Assembly: GCF_001886695.1 (NCBI RefSeq)
Contig: NZ_CP018097.1
Location: 1,135,001 to 1,199,000, forward strand
Origin: Aurantiacibacter gangjinensis
Lineage (GTDB): Bacteria > Pseudomonadota > Alphaproteobacteria > Sphingomonadales > Sphingomonadaceae
Reading direction: 5' to 3'
Length of the DNA stretch: 64,000 bases
This document shows positions 3,450 through 14,930 of this stretch, piece after piece; positions within the stretch are counted from its first letter, which is position 1; each line of letters opens with the position of its first letter. The translations under genes and the position numbers were made by a program. The notes under the pieces are model-generated. The model ran no database searches. It saw only the letters and a list, made by a program, of their open reading frames with translations, and was not told the DNA's origin.

Positions 3450-3812
3450 CTAGTCCTCCGCGCCCCAGTCGTCTTCATCCATCGGAGCGGGATCGAAACC
3501 CGAGGCATCGTCCATCGGCTCGGCAGCGAAGCCTTCCGTTGTGTCGATCAGGCTTTCTGGCTCGGCATCGACGTAGACGGTTTCGCCTTCCGTATCGCGT
3601 TCCTCCCGCCCGGTATCCTCGTCATCGGAGAATGTCGCCGTGGTCGCGGCAGGCCGGGGAGCGTCGCGGCGCGAAGGCTGTTCGATCGTTACGCGGCTGG
3701 GTTCGTGCCGCGAAGCCATTACCGCCTCATTGCGCGATTCCAGATCGTCACCGCACGCAGAGAGCGCCAGCGCGGTTGCGCACAGCGCGAAGCCGAGGCT
3801 GCGGCTAGCCAC
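3450..3812 (-). CDS. Hypothetical small acidic lipoprotein
   Basis: A 120-residue protein with a signal peptide ending in the lipobox LSACG, then a low-complexity, strongly acidic C-terminal half rich in Asp and Glu, ending DEDDWGAED. No folded domain is recognised. The start is a GTG at 3812 that overlaps the end of the preceding I78-like gene by 8 bases, so the two are probably co-transcribed and coupled. No clear Shine-Dalgarno sequence precedes it, which fits coupling. Function is unknown. Confidence 0.6.
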   Translation of the reverse strand: MASRSLGFALCATALALSACGDDLESRNEAVMASRHEPSRVTIEQPSRRDAPRPAATTATFSDDEDTGREERDTEGETVYVDAEPESLIDTTEGFAAEPMDDASGFDPAPMDEDDWGAED

Positions 3813-4656: not shown

Positions 4657-5319
4657 TCAGTCGATCTTCAGCTGCCCCGAACGGATGGCGGTATAGACCG
4701 CTTCCCCGCGCGAGTGGACGGCGAGCTTGCGGTAGATGGACTTGACGTGATTGCCGACCGTCAGCGGCGAAATGTCGAGCGCGCGGGCGGCTTCCTTGTA
4801 GCTCATGCCTTTTGCAAAAACCTCCAACAGCTCGACCTCGCGCGCCGTGAGCGGTGCGGCATCGGGATCGTCGCTGGTGCTGGTGGCCTGCGGACCGTCA
4901 CCCTGCAGGCGCTCCAGCAAGTAGGTGGCGGCAGACGGGCTGATCGGCGCGCCGCCATCCAGCGTGGCGGCAATGCCATCGAGGATGGAGGCTGGCGTCG
5001 AATCCTTCAGCAGATAGCCGTCCGCCCCCGCTTCGAGCGCGCGCACCACCGTCTCGCGGTCGCCGAAACTGGTGATCATCAGCACCTTGCAGTCGCGCTG
5101 CTGCTTGGCAAAGCCGATGAAATCTATGCCGCTGCCATCGGGCAGTCCCACATCCACCAGAAACAGGTCCGGCTGCTTTCGCACGACCAAATCCCTGGCC
5201 CGGGCGATAGTGGGCGCTGTGCCGGCAAGATCGTAATCCGGGCAGGAGGTGACGATTTCGGTCAGGTGCTCCCTGATCGCCGGATCATCATCGAGAATAG
5301 CGACGCGCGCATTAGCCAT
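4657..5319 (-). CDS. NarL/LuxR-type response regulator
   Basis: A 220-residue two-domain regulator. The receiver domain shows the acidic pair DDD (about 10-12), the phospho-acceptor D56 in FLVDVGLPDGSG, and the conserved Lys in GYLLKDS near 105. The C-terminal LuxR-type helix-turn-helix (about 150-205) contains PLTAREVELLEVFAKGMSYKEAA and the recognition helix SPLTVGNHVKSIYRKL. The chosen ATG at 5319 overlaps the histidine kinase stop by 8 bases and gives a normal receiver start (MANARVAILDDD). It is the output half of the two-component system encoded with the upstream gene and should bind DNA when phosphorylated. The target genes are not evident. Confidence 0.93.
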   Translation of the reverse strand: MANARVAILDDDPAIREHLTEIVTSCPDYDLAGTAPTIARARDLVVRKQPDLFLVDVGLPDGSGIDFIGFAKQQRDCKVLMITSFGDRETVVRALEAGADGYLLKDSTPASILDGIAATLDGGAPISPSAATYLLERLQGDGPQATSTSDDPDAAPLTAREVELLEVFAKGMSYKEAARALDISPLTVGNHVKSIYRKLAVHSRGEAVYTAIRSGQLKID

Positions 5320-7249
5320 CGGTCTTGTCCCCCAAAGTGCTGTCGGGCAGCTGGATGCGGGCAACGGTCCAGTCGCATTCCCGCTGCAAGGTAAACTCTC
5401 CGCCAATCATCTCCGCCCGTGCTGCCATATTTTCAAGGCCTCGTCCGCCCGCGCGAACCTTGCCCACAGATGAACCGTTATCGCGCACGGCAATGCTGCG
5501 CGATGCCACATCTACGGTGATCGTGTCGCCATCGGAATGTTTGAGAGCATTGGTCACAGCCTCCTGCAACACCCGGAAAACCTGCAACACAGGTCGCGGC
5601 TGGAGCAGTGGTAGGGTCGTATCGCTAGGCTGGTGCCACGCAAAGGCGAAACCGGCATCGGTGACGCGGCTTTGCGCCCTTTCGCGAAAAAGCACCAGCG
5701 CCGCACCGAGCGACTCGCCCACTGAATCCATGGAATCGATCATCAGGCGCATCTCGTCGATGGCCGATTGCAGGCCGCGCGCTACGGCTTCAGGCTCCGC
5801 ATTGCCGCGCCGGGCGGAAAGCAGCATGCTCATGAGGTTGGAGCCCATGCCATCGTGCATGTCCGCCATGATCCGGCGGCGCTCTTCCTGATGGGCCTGT
5901 TCGCGCAGCAAGGTCTTTTCGCGCGCATGGGCCGCGCCGAGCTCCGCCGTGCGCTCGTCCAGCTTCACTTTTAGCAGTCCGGCAATGTCTTCTGCAGAGC
6001 GGAACAGGCGGATATTGCGCGCGACGAAAGCGGCGACCAGCGCCAGCAGCAGGATCGGCACGGCGTAATTGGTGGGCATGCCCGTGCCCGTGCCGAAAAT
6101 CTGCCAAACCGCCATCGCCACGGCGATGGTAGCCAGCAGCAGGAAAACCGCCGCTTCCCAATGCCTCTCGCGCCCGATGGCGGGCAGGTTCCAGACGATC
6201 AGTGCCGAATAGATAAAAGCGTAGAGGGCAGTTGTGGCGAACAGCACCCATTCGGCTGGCCCGCCCATACCGCGCTCGGCGATGAGGATGGACGATGCCG
6301 TGATGGCGGCCACCCAGATTGCGAGGCTGGCGGGCAACAGGCGCGGTATGCTGCGCGGCCCCCAATTGTTGGCAAGGTTCACTCCGGCGAGCGGTATGAC
6401 CATGCCGACCACGGAATTGAGGTGGATCCACGGCCCGGCCGCAAGCGGCGGCGCATCCGTCATCATCATCAAAAGCGACAGGCCCCAACTGCCCGACAGC
6501 ATGCCCATCCAGAACAGGAAGGGATTACGCCCGCTGCGCAGCCAGCCGAGCAGGGCAATCAGGCCGACCGAGAGACCAATGGTGACGCTGGCGACAAGAT
6601 ATTCGTCACGCAGGAAGGCCTGCATCTGCTGGGTTTCGTAAACCGGCTTATACGGCCCGATCACAGGATCGTGCACATAGATCCCATGCCCTCCCGCGCC
6701 GGCGGCGGCGACATAGGTGATTGTGTTCGTGCCTTCGCGCAGAAGCGCGGGCGGGATGCGCCGTACGGGTCGTTCGGCATAGCTATGCATGGTGGAAAGG
6801 CCCGGCTCCACCGATCCCCGCCCGAAAGCGAGTTCACCGTTTACGTAGGTGAAGACATTGTCTGCATGGGCGTGGGAGACTTCGCCGAGCCCATCTGCGG
6901 GTACGGTGTCGACCTGGAATGTCAGGCGGAACGCATAGAGCGCGCTCTCGCAACATAGATCGACCGGTAGCGCCGTCTTTTCGAAACTTGCCTGCGACAG
7001 CCCAGCCGCGCCTGCCGTTTCAAGCTGGGCAATTTCGACCCGCTCGATCGCAAATTGCTCGGCCGGTCTTGGGACGGGATAGAACGCCGGGGCGATCAGC
7101 AGCCAGTATGCCGCCTGCACCACGCCAATGGCGAGCAGCAAATGCGGCCATTCGCGCCAGCGCGCATCCGCGCCGACCTTCGCGCGAAACCTGTAGAAGC
7201 TAATCCCGACCATCTGCCCCAAATATGGCAGGCGGCTTTGGCGCAGCAT
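5312..7249 (-). CDS. Membrane sensor histidine kinase (HisKA_3/NarX-like)
   Basis: A 645-residue sensor. A first membrane segment near residues 37-57 is followed by a roughly 160-residue outside domain resembling a 7TMR-DISM extracellular jelly-roll (YAFRLTFQVDT...TYVNGELAFGRG). A block of about seven hydrophobic helices then runs to about residue 420. The dimerisation/phosphotransfer segment EERRRIMADMHDGMGSNLM carries the acceptor H465. The ATPase domain has QEAVTNALKHSDG (N box) and GGRGLENMAARAEMIGG (G box). The catalytic part is of the NarX/DesK type, matching the NarL-type regulator downstream, with which it overlaps by 8 bases. The signal sensed is unknown. Confidence 0.92.
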   Translation of the reverse strand: MLRQSRLPYLGQMVGISFYRFRAKVGADARWREWPHLLLAIGVVQAAYWLLIAPAFYPVPRPAEQFAIERVEIAQLETAGAAGLSQASFEKTALPVDLCCESALYAFRLTFQVDTVPADGLGEVSHAHADNVFTYVNGELAFGRGSVEPGLSTMHSYAERPVRRIPPALLREGTNTITYVAAAGAGGHGIYVHDPVIGPYKPVYETQQMQAFLRDEYLVASVTIGLSVGLIALLGWLRSGRNPFLFWMGMLSGSWGLSLLMMMTDAPPLAAGPWIHLNSVVGMVIPLAGVNLANNWGPRSIPRLLPASLAIWVAAITASSILIAERGMGGPAEWVLFATTALYAFIYSALIVWNLPAIGRERHWEAAVFLLLATIAVAMAVWQIFGTGTGMPTNYAVPILLLALVAAFVARNIRLFRSAEDIAGLLKVKLDERTAELGAAHAREKTLLREQAHQEERRRIMADMHDGMGSNLMSMLLSARRGNAEPEAVARGLQSAIDEMRLMIDSMDSVGESLGAALVLFRERAQSRVTDAGFAFAWHQPSDTTLPLLQPRPVLQVFRVLQEAVTNALKHSDGDTITVDVASRSIAVRDNGSSVGKVRAGGRGLENMAARAEMIGGEFTLQRECDWTVARIQLPDSTLGDKTDG

Positions 7250-7269: not shown

Positions 7270-8286
7270 CTAGAGGCGCGCGGCCACCGGCGGGTCTTCC
7301 CCGCTGGCGATGGTCTCGCCTTTCCAGAGTCGGTGCAGGCGGTCCTCCAATATATCGCCCGGACCGCTGACGAAGCGCGGCTGGCCGAAATGTTGCATGA
7401 CGCGGTGCTGCTTTTCAAGAGCGCGCCGGTCCTGCGCGACCACGGGATTAAGGAAGAGCCGGATCGCCCCCTGCTTCAGCCATGACGGCGCGAACCCTTT
7501 CGGCGTAGAGAACCGTGCGAACGGCGTGAAAGTGCCATCCGTTGCGGGTGTGAAGATTGCGGTGACGCACAGGGTCAACTTCGTCTCGCCTTCCCAGCGC
7601 GCCTGCACGGTGGTGGGCGGATAATAATGGCTGACCGAGCAGGTGCGATCCCGCTCCAGCGCGCGCGACATGATGCCGTGGTCGGGCGCGCTCTGGTGGA
7701 TCGTCATGGCGATGGAATTGCCATGGCTTTCCACCACCAGCTCCACCGGATGGCGTTTGTCGCGGCGGCGGATGAAGCCATGATGCAGGTGGCCGGTATG
7801 GAACGGGTCCATCACATTCTCGATGGCATCGAATGCACGGCCTTGCCACGTGCCCTGCTGCCACCAGAAATGATCGAGATCGGGGTTGCCGAAATCGGGC
7901 GGCAGCGGCGGCGCGGCGGGGGCTGCGTCGCCGAATGTGACGAAGATCGCACCGTGGCGCTCGCAGACGCGCAGTGCCTTTGCGGAGAGGCGGCTGATGT
8001 CGACATTGTCGAGACTGCATCCCGGCACATCGCGGCAGGTGCCGTCACGCTCGAACCGCCAGCCGTGATAAGGGCATTCCAGCGTGCCGTCGCGCACCGA
8101 TCCCTCCGAAAGCGGGTAATTGCGATGGGGGCAGCGATCGACCAGCGCGCCTAGCCCCTCGCCATTGCGGAATAGCGCGATCGGCGTGTCCATCAGCGTG
8201 ATCTTGCGCGCTTGGCCGCGCCGCACATCGCTCGACAGCGCGACCATGTGCCACGCCTCGCGCACGGCCTGCGGAAATTCGCTCAT
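7270..8286 (-). CDS. Rieske non-heme iron oxygenase, alpha-subunit-like
   Basis: A 338-residue oxygenase. The Rieske [2Fe-2S] ligands are C52, H54 (CPHRNYPL) and C71, H74 (CPYHGW). The mononuclear iron site is ENVMDPFHTGHLHH with D160, H163 and H168. The length and the lone alpha subunit place it with the vanillate/phenylpropionate-type and terpenoid/lipid-modifying Rieske oxygenases rather than two-subunit aromatic dioxygenases. No ferredoxin or reductase gene lies nearby, so electron donors must come from elsewhere. It is the last gene of the six-gene overlapping operon that begins at 13454; its ATG overlaps the ATP-grasp stop as ATGA. In context it probably hydroxylates, demethylates or desaturates the operon's product. 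Confidence 0.9.
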   Translation of the reverse strand: MSEFPQAVREAWHMVALSSDVRRGQARKITLMDTPIALFRNGEGLGALVDRCPHRNYPLSEGSVRDGTLECPYHGWRFERDGTCRDVPGCSLDNVDISRLSAKALRVCERHGAIFVTFGDAAPAAPPLPPDFGNPDLDHFWWQQGTWQGRAFDAIENVMDPFHTGHLHHGFIRRRDKRHPVELVVESHGNSIAMTIHQSAPDHGIMSRALERDRTCSVSHYYPPTTVQARWEGETKLTLCVTAIFTPATDGTFTPFARFSTPKGFAPSWLKQGAIRLFLNPVVAQDRRALEKQHRVMQHFGQPRFVSGPGDILEDRLHRLWKGETIASGEDPPVAARL

Positions 8287-9407
8287 GCTAGATCCTCCCC
8301 GTTCCATTCGATATCGCGAGTGGTGGCCGCGGTGGCGGTAATGCCGCGCCGAATGCCGCTGGCGGTAAAGCGCGCCCCATCCAGCATCGCGCCTATCGCC
8401 GCGCGCCGGTCACCACCGCGTCCAGTCACATCGCGCCCCGCGCGCATGGTCGCACGCCATTCGGCCAAGCGGTTTTTGCGGAAGGCCATGGGAAGACCGT
8501 AAGCGAGCATGGCGGGGCCGATAAAGGCGGGCTGTGGGTCGGCATGCGCGAGCGATGCACCTTCCGCGATGGCCCGGGCGAGATCGCCGCGCCCCGTCAA
8601 CAGGTGCACCCCGCTGGTGGCGCGCGGGTTGCATTCGATCAGATGCGGCTGGCCGTGCGCATCGATGATTGCGTCACAGGCGAATTGCCCGGTGAGCTGG
8701 GCAGCTTCGGCGAGGCGTTGAGCCATCTCACGAGGCTTCCCCGCCGCCTGCCCATCCAGCGGCGCGAAGGCGAACCCAGCCCCGCCGCCAAGCCGCCACG
8801 GCGTGGTGTACCCGCTGAACGCGGTCACCTGGCCGCGATGCGCCACCGCGTAAAAGCATGCTTCCTGCCCGCATATGCGGCGCTGCATCAGCCAGCCCTT
8901 CTGCGGCGGCGGGGCTGTGCGAGGGCCGACCAGCACCTGTTCGCCAAACCGGCTGAAGCGCGGCTTGAAAACCCATTCGCGCGGATCGGTCGGGGGCAGA
9001 TCGTATCGCAGCGTCTCCGGTGCAGAGATGCCTGCCGCTGCTGCAAAGCTTGCGAAAGCCAGTTTGTCGTGAAGCGTCGTCAGCGTTTGAAGGCTCGGCG
9101 CGTAAAGCCGCCCCATCTTGCCATCCGCCTCGGCCCAAGCGGCAAGATGAAACACCTCCTCGCAAGCGGGCAGGATGATCGCCGGATCGACTTGCTGGAC
9201 CAGCCTGCGCATGTCGGCGCGAAAGGCCTGACGCTCGAAGGCGGGCGAAGAATAGCGGTGTAGCGCCGCATCCAGCCGCGACCAGCGCACCATTCGGGCA
9301 TCGACGCTGTCCGCCAGATGCACCTCCCACCCGGCAGCCTTGAAGTCACGCGCCAGATCCAGCGCGGCAGCGGCGCGGGCACCGGTGATGAGGATGCGCT
9401 CAGCCAT
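8283..9407 (-). CDS. ATP-grasp domain ligase of unknown specificity
   Basis: A 374-residue protein starting MAERILITGARAAAALDLAR, a carbamoyl-phosphate-synthase-like N-terminal Rossmann half. A central ATP-grasp domain follows: WVFKPRFSRFGEQVLVG for the ATP lysine and loop, GWLMQRRICGQEACFYAVA, and the metal-binding end HLIECNPRATSGVHLL. ATP-grasp ligases of this type join a carboxylate to an amine through an acyl phosphate. I chose the ATG at 9407, which overlaps the upstream adenylating-enzyme stop by 8 bases. Located between an adenylating enzyme and a Rieske oxygenase, it probably performs an amide or ester-type ligation in the same pathway. The substrate cannot be read from the sequence. 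Confidence 0.85.
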   Translation of the reverse strand: MAERILITGARAAAALDLARDFKAAGWEVHLADSVDARMVRWSRLDAALHRYSSPAFERQAFRADMRRLVQQVDPAIILPACEEVFHLAAWAEADGKMGRLYAPSLQTLTTLHDKLAFASFAAAAGISAPETLRYDLPPTDPREWVFKPRFSRFGEQVLVGPRTAPPPQKGWLMQRRICGQEACFYAVAHRGQVTAFSGYTTPWRLGGGAGFAFAPLDGQAAGKPREMAQRLAEAAQLTGQFACDAIIDAHGQPHLIECNPRATSGVHLLTGRGDLARAIAEGASLAHADPQPAFIGPAMLAYGLPMAFRKNRLAEWRATMRAGRDVTGRGGDRRAAIGAMLDGARFTASGIRRGITATAATTRDIEWNGEDLA

Positions 9408-10626
9408 GCCAGACCACTTTGCGGCGTTTCGGTCCGGGCCATGGCGGCAGGTCACGTCGTAGCTCGACGGCGACGGGGACGAGCGCCTGTAGCGCCTCTC
9501 GGGCGCCCTCAGCCTGCTCTCGCACGCCGCGAGGGTCGGTACGAAGCGTTACGTGTTCGGGGCTGGCGATAGCCTGCCAGCGCGTTGCGCCGCCGAGCAC
9601 CTTCTCGACCGCGTCCACCACCTCGCGCGGCAGGATAGACGTCTCTCCGAAGCGCCAGATGTCGCCGACACGGCTCTGTGGCGCACGGATAATGCGCCCT
9701 GCAAAACCGCACGAACATTTCGCGCCCGGTAGACGCTCTACCACATCGTCTCCACGCAGCCGCACGACCGGCTGGCTACGGCGGCGCAGATCGGTGATAA
9801 CCGGGCGACAGGCCAAGGTGCCGGGGATCGGTTCCAGCTCGATGGCCATCGAATGATCGTTCAGATGCAGCCGGCCATGCGCGCATTCGGCGGCAAGGAA
9901 GCCCTCGGTCGCTTGCCAGATCGCGCGCGGCGGCAGGGCGAAATGCGCGAAGATCACAGCACGTTCGGCCTCGCTCATCGGCTCGCTGCCATGGAAGAGA
10001 TAGCGCATCCTTGGCAGCCGCAGTCCGGCATCGACGAAGCCCAGCAGGCGATGCGCGGGGGCGATGAGGATAGTGGGAGCGAAGGCATGAAGCTGCTGCG
10101 CGGTGTCGGCAATATCGCCCGACAGCGGGAAATGGCGGAAGGAAATGCGACGCTGCCCTACATCGCTGTAGAGATCGCTTCCCGCGCGCAGGTGCAGGGC
10201 GATGCGCTGCGGTCGGAGAAGGGCGTGCCATGGTAGCAGGCGCGCAAGGCTCTGGCCGATATAGTCCACCCGCTCCGTAGCGTCGGCCACGAACAGGCCG
10301 CGCGTTCCGCCGCCCGAACCTGTCGACCATCCCGCGCTGACATCGCCGGTCGTCTCGCTCGCCTCTGCGGCATCCGCCATGGCGCGAAGCGCTTCATCGG
10401 ACAGGCCGAGACTACTCCACTGCCCGTAATTGGCGCGCATCTCGGCAATCTCGGTGACGGGATAGCAAGGCAGCGGCTTGCCTGCGTGACCGGCAAGGGC
10501 GGGCGTTGCTGCCATCGCATCCGACAGCGCTTCAAATTGCGCCTGCCTGTGCCGATGCAATGCGCGCGCGGACATGCGCATGGCCCGCTTTGTCCGCCAC
10601 CAGGATCGCAGGATTTCAGTCCGCAT
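9400..10626 (-). CDS. Adenylate-forming enzyme related to PaaK / F390 synthetase
   Basis: A 408-residue protein with the ANL-type phosphate loop STGSGGGTRGLF at about 101-112. FHGSEPMSEAER and AIWQATEGFLAAECAHG correspond to the adenine/acyl-binding part (the canonical YGxTE is TEG here). A C-terminal VRLRGDDVVERLPGAKCSCG segment also appears in coenzyme-F390 synthetase and PaaK relatives. Such enzymes activate carboxylates as acyl-AMP. The C-terminal lid is short. The start MRTEIL at 10626 overlaps the preceding hydrolase stop by 11 bases; the upstream in-frame extension to 10689 would overlap more and lacks support. In the operon it would activate an acid made by the ketosynthase and reductase. 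Confidence 0.8.
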   Translation of the reverse strand: MRTEILRSWWRTKRAMRMSARALHRHRQAQFEALSDAMAATPALAGHAGKPLPCYPVTEIAEMRANYGQWSSLGLSDEALRAMADAAEASETTGDVSAGWSTGSGGGTRGLFVADATERVDYIGQSLARLLPWHALLRPQRIALHLRAGSDLYSDVGQRRISFRHFPLSGDIADTAQQLHAFAPTILIAPAHRLLGFVDAGLRLPRMRYLFHGSEPMSEAERAVIFAHFALPPRAIWQATEGFLAAECAHGRLHLNDHSMAIELEPIPGTLACRPVITDLRRRSQPVVRLRGDDVVERLPGAKCSCGFAGRIIRAPQSRVGDIWRFGETSILPREVVDAVEKVLGGATRWQAIASPEHVTLRTDPRGVREQAEGAREALQALVPVAVELRRDLPPWPGPKRRKVVWHG

Positions 10627-11464
10627 CCTCGCCTCGGAACCGTGCGGCGCGAACGGGACAGTGGGCGGGTAGGATGGCGAGATCGGCACCCTTGCCGTCC
10701 GCTTCCCGCAATCGCGCGAGCGTGGCGTGATAGGTCGGTGTGTCGCCTAGCAGATTGGTGACGAAGCGCGGCGGCGGGCGGTTCTCGTCGATGGCGCGGC
10801 CCGAATAGACGGCATCGCCCGCGAGCAACACCGCCTGCCCTTCCTCGGTGACGAAAGCGAGGCCCCAATGCCCCTTGCAATGGCCGGGCAATTCCACCGC
10901 CAGCAGGCTGCCATCGCCGAGAATGTCGCGGCCAGATGTGAACGGCGCGAACTCGGCAGGCAGGGGCCGTTCCGGCATGTCCTCGAAGAAGAGCGCTTTG
11001 TCATCCATCGCTTCCGGCACCAGTCCGGGCAACAGGCCTTTGCGCACCCGCGCGAAGCGGCCACCACTGCGCAGAGTGTCGAGCCCGGCGCGCGCGCAAT
11101 ACATCGGCAGATGCGCCATGCGGCTGGCGCCCGCCACGTGGTCGCCATGGAAATGCGAAACGAGAAGGCCCGCGAGGCTGTCCTCGGCAATGTCGTTCGC
11201 GGCGAGCCATTCCCGCCATTCGTCGCCCGCGCCAATCTGTGCAGGCGTCGTCCAGCGATAGAAGCGTTCGGGAAAGGTCTCGGTCGCCTCCACGAAGAAC
11301 GGATCGTAGCCTGTGTCGAACAGAAAATGCCCGCGAGTCGGATGCGCGATGACGCCGACCATTGCAGGAAATGTCACCGGGCACAGGCTCCCGCCCCGGA
11401 TCATGCCAAGCTCGGGATGGCGACACGATCCACGCCTCAGCCAGCGAAAGCCTACGCGCTTCAT
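10616..11464 (-). CDS. MBL-fold metallo-hydrolase
   Basis: A 282-residue metallo-beta-lactamase fold protein. The zinc motif HFHGDH is complete at residues 104-109. GHCKGHWGL provides the next His, VLLAGDAVYSG the bridging Asp, and PAHCPVR near the end the last His. The N-terminal LFDTGYDPF strand is typical of lactonase-type members (AHL lactonase-like), although many other esters are cleaved by this fold. Its ATG overlaps the SDR stop as ATGA. It may be a lactone or thioester hydrolase in the operon; in the architecturally similar olefin (Ole) pathway the corresponding fourth enzyme is an unrelated alpha/beta hydrolase, so the role is open. Confidence 0.87.
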   Translation of the reverse strand: MKRVGFRWLRRGSCRHPELGMIRGGSLCPVTFPAMVGVIAHPTRGHFLFDTGYDPFFVEATETFPERFYRWTTPAQIGAGDEWREWLAANDIAEDSLAGLLVSHFHGDHVAGASRMAHLPMYCARAGLDTLRSGGRFARVRKGLLPGLVPEAMDDKALFFEDMPERPLPAEFAPFTSGRDILGDGSLLAVELPGHCKGHWGLAFVTEEGQAVLLAGDAVYSGRAIDENRPPPRFVTNLLGDTPTYHATLARLREADGKGADLAILPAHCPVRAARFRGEDAD

Positions 11465-12462
11465 GCGCTGTTCCGCATGGCCGCCGCCTGCTCCAGCAGC
11501 GTGGCGACGGCATCGTATCGCGGCTCGTAACCGAGCAGCATCTTCGCCGGTGCGAGATCGAAAGTCTGCGAATAGCCGAGCGTCGATAGCGTATAGCGCG
11601 TCAGCGGCGGCTCCTTCTGCAGGCGGAGGGCGCGCGCGCCATATTCCAACAGCCGCGCGACGCCATGCGCGAGCGGCAGGGGCAGGTTCGCAAATTTGGG
11701 CGAGAGACCTAGAGCGTCCGCTGCCTTTCGCGCCAGCTCCCCCACGGCAATCGGTTTGCCGCCTGAAATGTTGATCGCCACCGGACTGGTGGCGGGCGCG
11801 CGCTCTTCCGCTTCGAGGCAGGCCCAGGCCGCATCGCGCAGATCGGTCAGCTCGATCATGGCTTTCCCGTGGCGCGGCAGCGGAACCCGCTTGCGGGCGG
11901 CAATTTCGGCGAGGCGGGGCAGGATGACCTGGTCGCCATCGCCTACCAATGCGCGCGGACGGATCGCGACGGTGGCGAAGTTCTCGTCAGCAGCCGCGAG
12001 GACGAGGCGCTCGGCCGCCAGCTTGGTGCTGGCATAATGGTTGAGCGGCGGATCGCCGGGCGCTGCATCTGCCGTGATCTTTGTGCGATCACGCAGGCTG
12101 GCGAAGATCGATGGCGAGGAGATGACGACGAAGCGGCTGCATCCCGCCGCTCTAGCCGCTTCGACGATTACGCGCGTGCCGTCGACATTCACACGCTCAA
12201 ATTGCTCGCGCGGACCCCAGCTGGCGGAGAGCCCGGCGGCGTGGATCACGCTGTCGCAGCCCTGCACCAGGTCGAAAACATCGGCGGCGGGATCGGCAAG
12301 GTCGCACCAGCGAAACTCGGCGCCCATGGCCGCGAGTTCGTCGCCAATCGTGCATTTGCGCCCCGTGGCCCGCACACCGTGGCCGCGCGCCAGCGCTTCA
12401 CGCACCAGCGCCTTGCCAAGCCCGCCGGTCGCGCCGGTGATAAGAATGGTTCGCTTGCTCAT
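11461..12462 (-). CDS. Extended SDR / NAD-dependent epimerase-reductase (OleD-like)
   Basis: A 333-residue extended short-chain dehydrogenase. The nucleotide-binding GATGGLG is at 10-16, and the catalytic YASTK motif gives Y143 and K147. ISSPSIF precedes it and IHAAGLS marks the fourth strand. The overall pattern (GCDSVIHAAGLSASWGPREQF and the later ALVGDGDQVILPRL) resembles 3-beta-hydroxysteroid dehydrogenase and OleD-type 2-alkyl-3-oxoacid reductases. Next to a thiolase-fold condensing enzyme, reduction of a 3-oxo acid or ester is the simplest reading. Its ATG overlaps the ketosynthase stop as ATGA and its own stop overlaps the hydrolase ATG the same way, so the three genes are translationally coupled. 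Confidence 0.85.
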   Translation of the reverse strand: MSKRTILITGATGGLGKALVREALARGHGVRATGRKCTIGDELAAMGAEFRWCDLADPAADVFDLVQGCDSVIHAAGLSASWGPREQFERVNVDGTRVIVEAARAAGCSRFVVISSPSIFASLRDRTKITADAAPGDPPLNHYASTKLAAERLVLAAADENFATVAIRPRALVGDGDQVILPRLAEIAARKRVPLPRHGKAMIELTDLRDAAWACLEAEERAPATSPVAINISGGKPIAVGELARKAADALGLSPKFANLPLPLAHGVARLLEYGARALRLQKEPPLTRYTLSTLGYSQTFDLAPAKMLLGYEPRYDAVATLLEQAAAMRNSA

Positions 12463-13454
12463 ATCCGCACTACCATAGCACCTGCGCTGATCCCTGCAGC
12501 CGTTCCCAGCAGCAAAACATGGTCGCCCGGCTTTGCGCGGCCTTCATCCAGCGCATAAGCGAGGCAGGTCGGGATGGATGCTGCAATCTGGTTGCCATGG
12601 GTGGCGAAGATATCGACCACGCGATCCTCATGCGGCGCGAACAGGCGTTTCACATGCTCCACGCCCGGCGCGCTGGCCTGGTGACAGATAATGCATGCCA
12701 GGTCGTTTCTGGCGATGTCCGCATCCTGCAAAGCTCCCTCGATCACGCCCGGCAGCGCCTTGGCTGCGGCCTTGAAAATACCGAAGGCGTCCATCTCGAA
12801 GCGCGATCCGGCGACAAGCGCATCATAGCCTTCCTCGACCCGCAATTTCGTGCCGCCAGCGCGCAATTGCGCCAGTTCGTGATGCGCGCCGTTGGTGACG
12901 AAGCGGCTGGCAGCGATGCCGCGTTCGCCGCTGTCATCGGCCTCGATGGCGACGGCAGCCGCGCCGTCTCCGAAGATGGAGCGCGCCTTGGCATTGGCCG
13001 GATCGAGGCTGCAGGAAGCGATGTCGGACGCAAACACGAGCACGCGTTTCCAGCGCCCGGTCGCAATGCCCATGCCGACCACATCCAGCGCGGTCATGAA
13101 GCCGAGGCATGTCTGGTTCACATCGAAAGCGACGATGCCCGACTGGCCGAGGCCAAGCCTATCCTGCACCAGCGCGGCGGTGGAGGGGATGGGCTGTTCC
13201 ATCACGCCGCATCCGCCGATAATCGCGTCGAAGTCCGCCTCGTCCCAACCGGCCATGGCGAGAGCCGCGCGCGCCGCCTGTGCGGCCATCATCGAACTCG
13301 TTTCATCCGGCGCGGCCACATGGCGGCTGGCAATGCCGAATTGTTCCTCGGTCCAGCCCTCGGCCTCTCCGTATCGCGCATCCAGCGCCGCTGAACGCAC
13401 TGCCATGCGCGGGCGGTATGCGCCCCATCCTGCAATCGTGAAACCACTCAACAT
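12459..13454 (-). CDS. 3-oxoacyl-ACP synthase III / OleA-like condensing enzyme
   Basis: A 331-residue thiolase-fold ketosynthase of the FabH group. The triad is visible: C116 in DVNQTCLGFM, H258 in ICHQASAPG and N288 in THGNQIAAS. FGDGAAAVAIE and LLLGTAAGISAGAMV complete the fold. It starts at ATG 13454 after AGGGAG. It differs from housekeeping FabH: the nucleophile context is NQTCLGF and no fatty-acid synthesis genes are nearby. It is the first gene of the six-gene operon and lies behind a divergent TetR regulator, so it probably makes the first carbon-carbon bond of a secondary metabolite or unusual lipid. The choice between OleA-like and FabH-like chemistry is open. Confidence 0.85.
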   Translation of the reverse strand: MLSGFTIAGWGAYRPRMAVRSAALDARYGEAEGWTEEQFGIASRHVAAPDETSSMMAAQAARAALAMAGWDEADFDAIIGGCGVMEQPIPSTAALVQDRLGLGQSGIVAFDVNQTCLGFMTALDVVGMGIATGRWKRVLVFASDIASCSLDPANAKARSIFGDGAAAVAIEADDSGERGIAASRFVTNGAHHELAQLRAGGTKLRVEEGYDALVAGSRFEMDAFGIFKAAAKALPGVIEGALQDADIARNDLACIICHQASAPGVEHVKRLFAPHEDRVVDIFATHGNQIAASIPTCLAYALDEGRAKPGDHVLLLGTAAGISAGAMVVRI

Positions 13455-13488
13455 CGTGGTCGTCTCCCTCTGATTCACTGTTAGCATC

Positions 13489-13541
13489 GCGCAAAACTAG
13501 ACACTGTTCAATTAAAAATTACACAACGTTCAATTTTGCGC
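13489..13541. promoter_or_regulatory. Shared intergenic control region with direct and inverted repeats
   Basis: The gap between the ketosynthase and the TetR gene is AT-rich and structured. GTTCAATT occurs twice as a direct repeat at 13506-13513 and 13528-13535, 22 bases apart (two helical turns). An outer inverted repeat, GCGCAAAA at 13489-13496 and TTTTGCGC at 13534-13541, frames the region. This is where a TetR dimer pair controlling both directions would be expected to bind. The binding itself is inferred. Confidence 0.55.
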
Positions 13542-13555
13542 TTATCCACATCTCC

Positions 13556-14161
13556 ATGGGAAGACGGTCCGATCACACGCCCGATGAGCTGCGCACCTTG
13601 CTGCTGGAGGAGGGGCACGCCCTGCTGGCAGAGCGGGGTTTCGCGAAATTCTCCGCACGCGAAGCGGCGCGGCGGGCGGGTTATTCGGTGGGCACGTTCT
13701 ACAATGTGTTCGGCTCGCTCGATGCCTACCTGCTCGCGGTCAATAGCTGCACGTTCCGCCGCTGGAGCGACTGGCTGGAGGCCGCGCTGGACGGCACGCC
13801 GTCAAACGGGACCGCGCGGATCGAGGCGCTGGTGCTCGCCTATTTCAGCTTCGCGATGAAGCACGCCAACCTCTGGCTCGCCATCTACGACCACCGGATC
13901 GACAAACAGGTCGATATCGCGCCCGAGGATGTCGGCGCGCGCGAGGGCCTGACGGCCATCGTGGACCGGGAAGTGACACGGTGGATGGGGCTGGGCGAGC
14001 CCGACGAGAAGACCAAGCGACTGGTGCGATCGCTCATCGCGGTGGTCCACGGCCATTGCGCTTTATGGCTATCGGGCAGCTTTGCCCTGATGCAGGAAAC
14101 CGATCCGGCAGGTCAGGCGTTGGAGCGTGTGCTGGAGGTGCTGGAGGCGCAAACAGATTGA
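13556..14161 (+). CDS. TetR family transcriptional regulator
   Basis: A 201-residue regulator. The N-terminal DNA-binding domain (about 10-60) includes LLEEGHALLAERGFAKFSAR and the helix-turn-helix AARRAGYSVGTFYNVFGSL, the usual TetR signature. The C-terminal part is an all-helical ligand domain. The ATG at 13556 follows ATCTCC without a strong Shine-Dalgarno sequence. It is divergent from the six-gene biosynthetic operon and shares the 100-base intergenic region with its repeats, so it most likely represses that operon and itself, released by a pathway-related ligand. That regulatory assignment is inferred from arrangement only. Confidence 0.9.
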   Translation: MGRRSDHTPDELRTLLLEEGHALLAERGFAKFSAREAARRAGYSVGTFYNVFGSLDAYLLAVNSCTFRRWSDWLEAALDGTPSNGTARIEALVLAYFSFAMKHANLWLAIYDHRIDKQVDIAPEDVGAREGLTAIVDREVTRWMGLGEPDEKTKRLVRSLIAVVHGHCALWLSGSFALMQETDPAGQALERVLEVLEAQTD

Positions 14162-14199: not shown

Positions 14200-14273
14200 G
14201 CGGGTGTAGCTCAATGGTAGAGCAGCAGCTTCCCAAGCTGACGACGAGGGTTCGATTCCCTTCACCCGCTCCA
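14200..14273 (+). tRNA. tRNA-Gly (anticodon CCC)
   Basis: A 74-base tRNA including the encoded CCA end. The acceptor stem GCGGGTG pairs with CACCCGC, the D arm is GCTC/GAGC, and the T arm is GAGGG-TTCGATT-CCCTT. The anticodon loop is TTCCCAA with CCC at 14232-14234. It follows the TetR gene by 38 bases. Confidence 0.97.
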
Positions 14274-14369: not shown

Positions 14370-14930
14370 ATGCCCGCATTTTTCCTCACCTTCATCGCCG
14401 TAGCGGCTGCCATGCTGGCAGGCCGCGACGCCGTGCGGGTAGCGCGGCTGAAGGCGAGCCTTGGCTGGACCGCGCCGTTGCTGGTCATCATCTTCGTCGC
14501 GGCTTTGCTGGGAGCGGCGCTGGCGGCGTGGATCGCGGGCAGCCTCGCCCCGCTGATCGCGCCGAGTTACAAGCCTGTGGTCGTGGCCGTGGCGCTGGGA
14601 TTGGCCGGGCTTGAGCTGTTGCTGCGATCCCCGCCGGCCAAACCGCGCGAGCCGACCCGCTCTATGGGTGCGATCACGCTGGTCCTGCTGCTGGGCATGG
14701 TGACCGATGCGAGCGGCTTTATCATCCTCTCCATGGCCATCGCGACCGGAGAGCTGGCGCTGGCGGCAGCGGGCGGCGCTACCGCTGCCATCGCGGTGCT
14801 TGTGGCGGCGCTGGTCGCGGCGGAGGATTGGGACACGCTGCCGCTCGATCCCGTGCGCAGGATCGTCGCTGCCGCGCTGATACTCGCTGCCGTAGTAATC
14901 GTTCTGGTCGGTCGTAACCTCATCGGCTGA
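14370..14930 (+). CDS. Conserved integral membrane protein, possibly a degenerate TMEM165/GDT1 relative
   Basis: A 186-residue protein of about six hydrophobic helices arranged as two similar halves, separated by a charged loop near residues 85-97 (RSPPAKPREPTRS). The first helix is followed by AGRDAVRVARL and the second half by TDASGFIILSMA. These are the places where GDT1-family cation exchangers carry ExGDK(T/S), but the acidic motif is not conserved here. I therefore call it a membrane protein of unknown function with a possible distant relation to GDT1. It starts shortly after the tRNA gene. Confidence 0.6.
   Translation: MPAFFLTFIAVAAAMLAGRDAVRVARLKASLGWTAPLLVIIFVAALLGAALAAWIAGSLAPLIAPSYKPVVVAVALGLAGLELLLRSPPAKPREPTRSMGAITLVLLLGMVTDASGFIILSMAIATGELALAAAGGATAAIAVLVAALVAAEDWDTLPLDPVRRIVAAALILAAVVIVLVGRNLIG

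Follow-up and report, generated by a model that had tools for sequence, protein, structure and literature searches.

A ketosynthase-SDR-hydrolase-adenylase gene core with variable partner genes in an operon of Aurantiacibacter gangjinensis

The ketosynthases CorB and MxnB, from the corallopyronin and myxopyronin pathways, join two carrier-bound chains into an alpha-pyrone. They operate with large polyketide assembly lines (PMC5724707), and the phylogenetic tree in PMC4578411 (Kresovic et al.) placed them within the FabH clade. A relative of these ketosynthases was found in a compact operon in the stretch of A. gangjinensis DNA analysed here (64,000 nucleotides, the window). The operon probably makes a molecule that resembles a modified fatty acid and is linked to an amino acid.

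No description of the pathway was found in the open-licence full-text literature, which omits most subscription journals, in line with the initial annotation, which had called the operon undescribed. The same open-licence literature contained no paper on TIGR02304, PRK07204, PRK06849 or the "F390 synthetase-related protein", the last being the NCBIfam name of TIGR02304; PRK06849 is named "hypothetical protein".

Gene layout and predicted regulation

Six minus-strand genes, with successive overlaps of 4, 4, 11, 8 and 4 bases (starts were picked to fit homologues), lie next to a divergent TetR gene (Table 1). This layout, proposed in the initial annotation, was confirmed from gene coordinates and from Pfam and NCBIfam assignments. 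Both databases agreed with the family assignments of the window genes, and the best NCBIfam model of every window protein scored below its curated cut-off. The six-gene operon contained no carrier-protein gene, and profiles of the proteins of the block in Pfam and NCBIfam revealed no ring-cleavage gene.

Table 1. Features of the operon and its flanks (positions in the window)
Feature	Position	Strand	Basis
Response regulator adjoining the sensor kinase	4657..5319	-	gene calls
Sensor kinase, downstream of the operon	5312..7249	-	gene calls
Rieske non-haem iron oxygenase, VanA_C type	7270..8286	-	Pfam, alignment
ATP-grasp ligase, PRK06849 type	8283..9407	-	profiles, structure model
PaaK/F390-synthetase-like adenylate-forming enzyme, TIGR02304 type	9400..10626	-	NCBIfam, alignment
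MBL-fold hydrolase, lactonase-like	10616..11464	-	profiles, alignment
Extended SDR, OleD the best curated model	11461..12462	-	profiles, alignment
Ketosynthase III (KS), CorB/MxnB-containing clade, C116/H258/N288	12459..13454	-	profiles, tree, alignment
Putative TetR operator copy 1, ATTGAACA-n-TGTCTAAT type	13497..13512		16/16 rows aligned
Second copy of the putative TetR operator, spaced 22 bases from the first	13518..13534		sequence repeat
Divergent TetR regulator	13556..14161	+	profiles; 101-base gap to operon

An alignment of relatives indicated that the tandem intergenic sites between the TetR and KS genes are conserved, and TetR probably controls the biosynthetic operon. Linkage of the sensor kinase to the operon was seen in some close relatives only.

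Conservation and spread of the core

The gene caller was crude at high G+C and skipped core genes, and therefore counts were taken from a profile search, covering the 78 loci L018-L095 only. At 74 of these loci, in several phyla, genes for KS, SDR and MBL enzymes lay no more than 7 kb from the gene for the adenylating enzyme; a block not conserved in relatives, named in the initial annotation as a refuting outcome, was therefore not what was observed. The core genes were all on the same strand at 77/78 loci; the single exception appears to be L032, with a second KS on the opposite strand. In four of four other genomes, retrieved because they matched the adenylating protein strongly, the six genes occurred in identical order. 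Taken together, the shared order, proximity and common strand indicate an arrangement beyond chance.

The set is not fixed at six genes, as had been assumed initially; a KS-SDR-MBL-adenylase core is accompanied by variable genes for the ATP-grasp ligase, a FemX/GNAT-fold protein (c7) and the Rieske enzyme. Across the 78 loci, Rieske genes co-occurred with an ATP-grasp gene in 45 of 45 cases and c7 in 20 of 20.

The core was found in Alpha-, Beta- and Gammaproteobacteria, Bacillota, Verrucomicrobiota, Myxococcota, Melainabacteria and Fusobacteriota, with transfer of the block to Halomonadaceae, and it occurred without a Rieske gene in Clostridium and in an Akkermansia metagenome-assembled genome. 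Gut bacteria are among its carriers. Among 5,426 complete genomes of E. coli, 671 (about one in eight) had a version with fatty acid hydroxylase and desaturase genes, and PAP2 is also a neighbour in this species. A DUF3419 gene adjoins the core on a Rhizobium plasmid, and a gene for an MFS-acyltransferase-AMP-binding protein does so at L026. Such lipid-gene neighbours were few and all came from lineages other than that of the window. With somewhat less than even confidence, we read the window operon as a variant of a pathway that is based on the four-gene core and has spread by horizontal transfer.

Judged by their length, some contigs were reached twice (L014/L022, L015/L042, L018/L161, L023/L163, L034/L162, L037/L165, L039/L166 and L063/L164). 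Six weak partial matches (27-46% identity) from the family search were left out of the orthologue set, and at one of them, L017 (G178), the operon was absent. The genome at L174 was without a KS, and approximately 5 kb separates the flanking genes there.

Ketosynthase and associated enzymes

The KS tree contained 10 FabH rows, with OleA and PpyS absent, and was rooted on one long-branch row (L124); the tree program warned of long branches meeting among the other KSIII rows. A cluster clade of 38 rows (support 99/98) contained CorB and MxnB and excluded all 10 FabH rows. Within it, CorB and MxnB were nested with Myxococcota rows (96/85), while the genome's own FabH (L099) was placed among the FabH rows. 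A grouping with housekeeping FabH, named at the outset as the outcome that would speak against a new pathway, was thus not obtained, and identity of the KS as housekeeping FabH was ruled out by the tree and the signature residues. The C-H-N triad was intact in 77/77 KS sequences, and Q87 and S261, which match CorB/MxnB and are absent from the FabH rows, were each present in all 77. The site of the OleA/PpyS catalytic glutamate, located via V94 of MxnB/CorB according to PMC4578411, was occupied by I in 63, L in 13 and V in 1 of the 77.

The best curated NCBIfam model for the SDR was OleD, at 197 bits and below its cut-off of 580, and S115, Y143 and K147 were invariant in 76 rows. In the MBL enzyme, H104, H106, D108, H109, H195 and D217 were conserved at 100% and H268 at 99% (76 rows).

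The adenylating protein had no match in Pfam and scored 141 bits against TIGR02304, below the cut-off of 251.9; its Clostridium (534) and Xenorhabdus (556) relatives score above this value. S101, G103, T240, E241, D294 and K400 were conserved at 100% (79 rows), and these residues represent the adenylation motifs, including the catalytic lysine near the C-terminus. By these motifs the protein is an adenylate-forming enzyme of the PaaK type. Its closest solved relatives were AjiA1 and PaaK-like ligases, the latter including enzymes for aromatic acids.

The structure model of the ATP-grasp enzyme (pLDDT 91.9) ranked PylC and L-amino acid ligase folds first, with PurK, GAR synthetase and biotin carboxylases scoring nearly equally. 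A comparison with PDB sequences gave no meaningful match, the best (E 0.96) being to an unrelated protein. The c7 product had a FemX/MprF/tandem-GNAT fold. The Rieske enzyme has the cluster ligands (two Cys, two His) and a 2-His-1-Asp iron site, and C52, H54, C71, H74, H163, H168 and D286 were conserved at 100% (46 rows); the operon encodes no reductase partner for it.

Proposed pathway and comparison with known systems

We tentatively propose, at a little under an even chance, that the core enzymes form a beta-hydroxy acid, probably acyl-derived, and activate it, after which the ligase adds an amino acid and the Rieske enzyme oxidises the molecule. The KS would condense an acyl thioester with malonyl or beta-ketoacyl as the activated thioester partner, the OleD-like SDR would reduce the beta-ketone, and the MBL enzyme would free the acid by hydrolysis. 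The PaaK-like enzyme would then re-activate the acid to an acyl-AMP or acyl-CoA. In the window version, the ATP-grasp enzyme would attach an amino acid or amine, and the Rieske enzyme would hydroxylate the conjugate. We infer all substrates, the order of steps and the fatty-acyl nature of the scaffold. This proposal draws on the conservation of the core, the KS clade and its invariant residues, the resemblance of the SDR to OleD, the ATP-grasp fold ranks and the c7 fold, the nesting of Rieske and c7 genes with ATP-grasp genes, the lipid-gene neighbours and the transfer to Halomonadaceae. Against it count the core itself, which gives no indication of an acyl substrate, the small number of lipid-gene neighbours and their origin in other lineages, the scores below cut-offs, the low sequence identity of the ATP-grasp fold matches and the close scores of PurK, GAR synthetase and biotin carboxylases, the aromatic-type adenylase relatives, the lack of a carrier-protein gene and of a Rieske reductase partner, and the tree in PMC4578411.

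The adenylase relatives would fit an aromatic signal or pigment resembling PQS, in which an aryl acid activated by the PaaK-like enzyme is extended by the KS, the MBL enzyme takes the part of PqsE, and the SDR, ATP-grasp and Rieske enzymes tailor the product. In the PQS pathway PqsD extends the aryl acid as ketosynthase and PqsE is the MBL counterpart; PqsD was among the KS matches here, and the MBL enzyme is lactonase-like. However, CorB/MxnB were far better KS matches than PqsD (4.6e-62 versus 3.1e-30), the SDR resembles OleD, and lipid genes adjoin the core in some lineages, so that we regard such a product as unlikely. Less likely still is an Ole-like route through a 2-alkyl-3-hydroxy acid to a beta-lactone or olefin, in which the PaaK-like enzyme would stand in for OleC and the MBL enzyme for OleB. 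The initial annotation had pointed to this analogy: its order of condensation, reduction and activation and the nearness of the SDR to OleD hold, but the KS does not have the OleA/PpyS glutamate and falls with CorB/MxnB in a tree containing no OleA. In line with that annotation, neither the OleC nor the OleB family was found among the block proteins by Pfam or NCBIfam, and the ATP-grasp and FemX-fold genes suggest amides. Membership of the plain Ole pathway was ruled out by the missing glutamate, the absence of both families and the OleD score below cut-off.

Catabolic pathways often contain members of the Rieske, PaaK-like, SDR and MBL families, and a divergent TetR is present here, as might be expected if a CoA ligase and Rieske, SDR and MBL enzymes degraded an acid of aromatic, steroid or lipid type. 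This is very improbable, since the condensing triad is kept in every KS, the ATP-grasp and FemX-fold enzymes would make amides, the block is without a ring-cleavage gene, and the core occurs without a Rieske gene in Clostridium and Akkermansia.

Extending the beta-hydroxy acid proposal, the core might, more doubtfully, lead to a class of bacterial lipids that has yet to be described, in which a CorB/MxnB-clade KS builds a chain-joined scaffold of the beta-hydroxy acid type and interchangeable modules finish it. With similar doubt, these modules may comprise ATP-grasp or FemX-type enzymes (adding an amino acid), DUF3419, a sulfotransferase, hydroxylases and desaturases. If true, a pathway without a known product extends over several phyla, gut bacteria and E. 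coli included, CorB/MxnB relatives have a role beyond large antibiotic assembly lines, and TIGR02304 and PRK06849 gain a biochemical context. The core, of just four genes, could be expressed in a laboratory strain.

Among known systems, FabH has the same fold and C-H-N triad as the window KS, but falls in a separate clade and differs at Q87, S261, T318, S323 and the F87 site. At this last site the window KS and CorB/MxnB have a small residue; they also have the clade, Q87, S261 and the triad in common, whereas the window KS belongs to a small operon, alongside SDR, MBL and PaaK-like genes. OleABCD shares with the window the OleD-like SDR and the order of reactions; the window differs by its KS without the glutamate, by having no OleB or OleC, and by its additional ATP-grasp and Rieske genes. 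PylC and L-amino acid ligases are the first-ranked folds for the ATP-grasp enzyme, yet only 14-17% identical to it. PaaK/F390-synthetase-like enzymes such as AjiA1 have an adenylation core in common with the window protein, but the sequence match is confined to the C-terminal half.

Organization and local conservation of the operon

The six minus-strand genes overlap successively by 4, 4, 11, 8 and 4 bases and are preceded by a divergent TetR gene, in agreement with the fully overlapping operon described in the initial annotation. The G+C content of the block (63.5-68.1% per kilobase) is slightly above the 61-65% found elsewhere in the first 30 kb.

Features of the operon and of related loci (window positions unless a fetched locus, L, is named; starts of the six minus-strand genes matched to homologues)
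Feature	Position	Strand	Remarks
Ketosynthase III (KS)	12459-13454	-	
Extended SDR	11461-12462	-	
MBL hydrolase	10616-11464	-	
PaaK/F390-like adenylating enzyme	9400-10626	-	
ATP-grasp	8283-9407	-	
Rieske	7270-8286	-	
TetR	13556-14161	+	divergent
tRNA-Gly (CCC)	14200-14273		38 bases past the TetR gene
Candidate TetR operator, copy 1	13497-13512		ATTGAACA-n-TGTCTAAT-like; 16-row alignment
Candidate TetR operator, copy 2	13518-13534		ATTGAACA-n-TGTCTAAT-like; 16-row alignment
c7 family, example	L066:12353-13483		about 340-390 aa; 10 further loci in alignment
E. coli version	L141:4001-10882 (NRG 857C chromosome); L127:2855-9736		core, then PAP2, fatty acid hydroxylase, fatty acid desaturase

Among 199 genomes of the family, the adenylating enzyme had matches at E 1e-3 or better in 11 and at 48% identity or more in five, including its own genome; at 1e-15 its profile matched three of 385 genomes of the class. 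All four other family genomes with at least 48% identity contained the six genes in the same order, two of them with TetR beside the operon, and the block is conserved in relatives. Within the genus, the KS was present in nine of 40 genomes and the gene adjoining the operon at 14370-14930 in 37 of 40. A homologue of this gene adjoins the operon in L161, as in the window, and lies at least 66 kb from the KS in five genomes (G622, G615, G596, G610 and G103). The opposite flank of the window's operon recurs in L162 and L163 (genes matching those at 3805 and 3450), and there the operons consist of the four core genes (KS, SDR, MBL and adenylase) only. The kinase/regulator pair at 4657-7249 adjoins the operon on two further contigs (L018/L161 and L039/L166); G587 (69% complete), which gave no KS in the search, has a 52% kinase as well. 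Because a TetR relative (L175:5265-5864, 77% identity) is retained beside the same neighbour gene as in the window, in a genome in which a search for the KS found none, it looks like the remnant of a lost operon.

Alignment of the TetR-KS gap (16 rows: the window, L013 and 14 loci with TetR directly adjoining the KS) identified two imperfect motif copies, 22 bases apart in the window and present with small changes in all 16 rows, which are likely candidate TetR operators. In a six-protein concatenated tree of 18 rows, three Halomonadaceae fell within Sphingomonadales (8-row clade 100/100, 5-row clade 96/99), and all six single-gene trees placed the three together beside sphingomonad rows, with support for the joining branch ranging from 35 (adenylase) to 94 (Rieske). 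Judged from these trees, the block was most likely transferred as one unit.

A conserved core with variable tailoring genes

Scanning of a species collection with the adenylase alignment yielded 190 pattern matches and 171 relatives; the best 80, in 78 loci, were kept, and gene content was called with self-built profiles. Since all 78 loci were chosen through the adenylase and many are closely related, the following counts are non-independent and uninformative on adenylase-free loci. In 74 of the 78, the KS, SDR and MBL genes were no more than 7 kb from the adenylase; the exceptions were L043, at a contig edge, and three Asticcacaulis loci (L067, L068 and L070) in which the adenylase directly follows the KS, without SDR or MBL between. 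Tailoring genes comprised ATP-grasp and Rieske in 33 loci, ATP-grasp, c7 and Rieske in 12, ATP-grasp and c7 in eight, ATP-grasp alone in six and none in 19 (12 of them Xenorhabdus), with five loci of the last two classes truncated by a contig end (L049, L050, L051, L058 and L076). The six-gene set of the initial annotation is not fixed; among the best 80 of 171 relatives, it is the core that persists. In these loci Rieske (45/45) and c7 (20/20) always occurred with ATP-grasp, a nesting which suggests that both may use the ATP-grasp product as substrate or work at a later step. Named hosts included Erythrobacter, Novosphingobium, Halomonas, Brevundimonas, Asticcacaulis, Xenorhabdus, Dyella, Janthinobacterium and Clostridium, and metagenome-assembled hosts, by name, Akkermansia, Sandaracinaceae and Gastranaerophilales. 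One block gene was matched in two pieces in L019 (ATP-grasp), L040 (SDR), L057 and L133 (both Rieske), reflecting sequencing error or decay.

Adenylase matches were found in 34 of 72,556 plasmid records, and profiles detected all four core genes in 14 of 16 opened regions; no KS was seen within the stretch opened of L129, and L132 had adenylase and ATP-grasp only. Three records (L135, L138 and L139) were arranged core-c7-Rieske with ATP-grasp on the opposite strand, and TetR and sulfotransferase genes adjoin the core in Paracoccus and Ketogulonicigenium records. On a Rhizobium plasmid (L130), with no ATP-grasp match within the stretch, a DUF3419 protein (146 bits; L130:8980-10053) adjoins c7 in the usual ATP-grasp place; this family includes the betaine-lipid enzyme BtaA. 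The E. coli version is located after narI and, in the one chromosome opened, before tRNA-Tyr; its seven-gene stretch matched 672 of 5,426 complete genomes, with 671 of the matches covering 80% or more of it, in a collection that samples the species unevenly. In L026, L027 and L046, TetR and KS are separated by an MFS-acyltransferase-AMP-binding protein of about 1,160 aa (domains checked in L026), and clustering grouped the L026 protein with homologues in L027, L046 and L091.

Enzyme families and proposed pathway

No protein of the block reached the curated cut-off of its top NCBIfam model: PRK07204 for the KS (312 bits, cut-off 402), OleD for the SDR (197, 580), 4-pyridoxolactonase for the MBL protein (44, 325; AHL lactonases second), TIGR02304 'F390 synthetase-related' for the adenylase (141, 251.9; no match in Pfam) and PRK06849 for ATP-grasp (221, 406). 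The Rieske protein has Rieske and VanA_C domains, and TetR matched FasR, CurR, AcuR and FabR weakly. Residues conserved at 100% were S115, Y143 and K147 in the SDR (76 rows); H104, H106, D108, H109, H195 and D217 in the MBL protein (76 rows; H268 at 99%); T240, E241, D294 and K400 in the adenylase (79 rows), together with C248, H254, C304 and C306, perhaps a metal site; K148, E258, N260 and R262 in ATP-grasp (59 rows); and C52, H54, C71, H74, H163, H168 and D286 in the Rieske protein (46 rows).

The AlphaFold2 model of ATP-grasp (pLDDT 91.9) had PylC, an L-amino acid ligase and again PylC as top Foldseek ranks; PurK, GAR synthetase and biotin carboxylases scored almost as high. The c7 protein of L066, a family without match in Pfam and NCBIfam searches, gave a model (pLDDT 89.5) nearest to aminoacyl-tRNA-dependent peptide synthases, MprF/L-PGS, FemX and tandem GNAT proteins. 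These predicted folds may point to amide formation by both.

The operon very probably encodes a real, conserved biosynthetic pathway. An acyl or lipid scaffold is somewhat favoured because of genes that adjoin the core elsewhere (in E. coli, in L130 and, as the MFS-acyltransferase-AMP-binding protein, in L026), the KS clade and the OleD likeness. In a tentative scheme based on the genes, the core would condense, reduce, hydrolyse and re-activate, after which ATP-grasp would add an amino acid, c7, in some loci, a further acyl or aminoacyl group, and the Rieske enzyme a hydroxyl.

The ketosynthase and known systems

C116, H258, N288, Q87 and S261 were each present in all 77 cluster KSs. The initial annotation had likened the operon to the Ole route. 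According to PMC4578411, E105 of PpyS is required for photopyrone production, E117 of OleA has a similar role, and MxnB and CorB have V94 at this site. The site, F87 in FabH, is I in 63, L in 13 and V in one of the cluster KSs, and by this catalytic-glutamate test an OleA/PpyS-like KS was rejected; the likeness to Ole is kept by the SDR and not by the KS. MxnB condenses two carrier-protein-bound chains (PMC5724707). Together with the clade and residues of the cluster KSs, this activity supports either a chain-joining or a malonyl-type condensation.

A tree of 55 rows separated the cluster KSs from housekeeping FabH, represented by 10 rows (93/99) that included the FabH of the window's own genome; Q87 and S261 also differ in the FabH rows. 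OleA and PpyS have a catalytic glutamate where the cluster KSs have I, L or V. CorB and MxnB share with the cluster KSs a 38-row clade (99/98), in which they grouped with two Myxococcota rows (96/85), as well as Q87 and S261 and a small residue at the F87 site (V in CorB and MxnB; I, L or V in the cluster).
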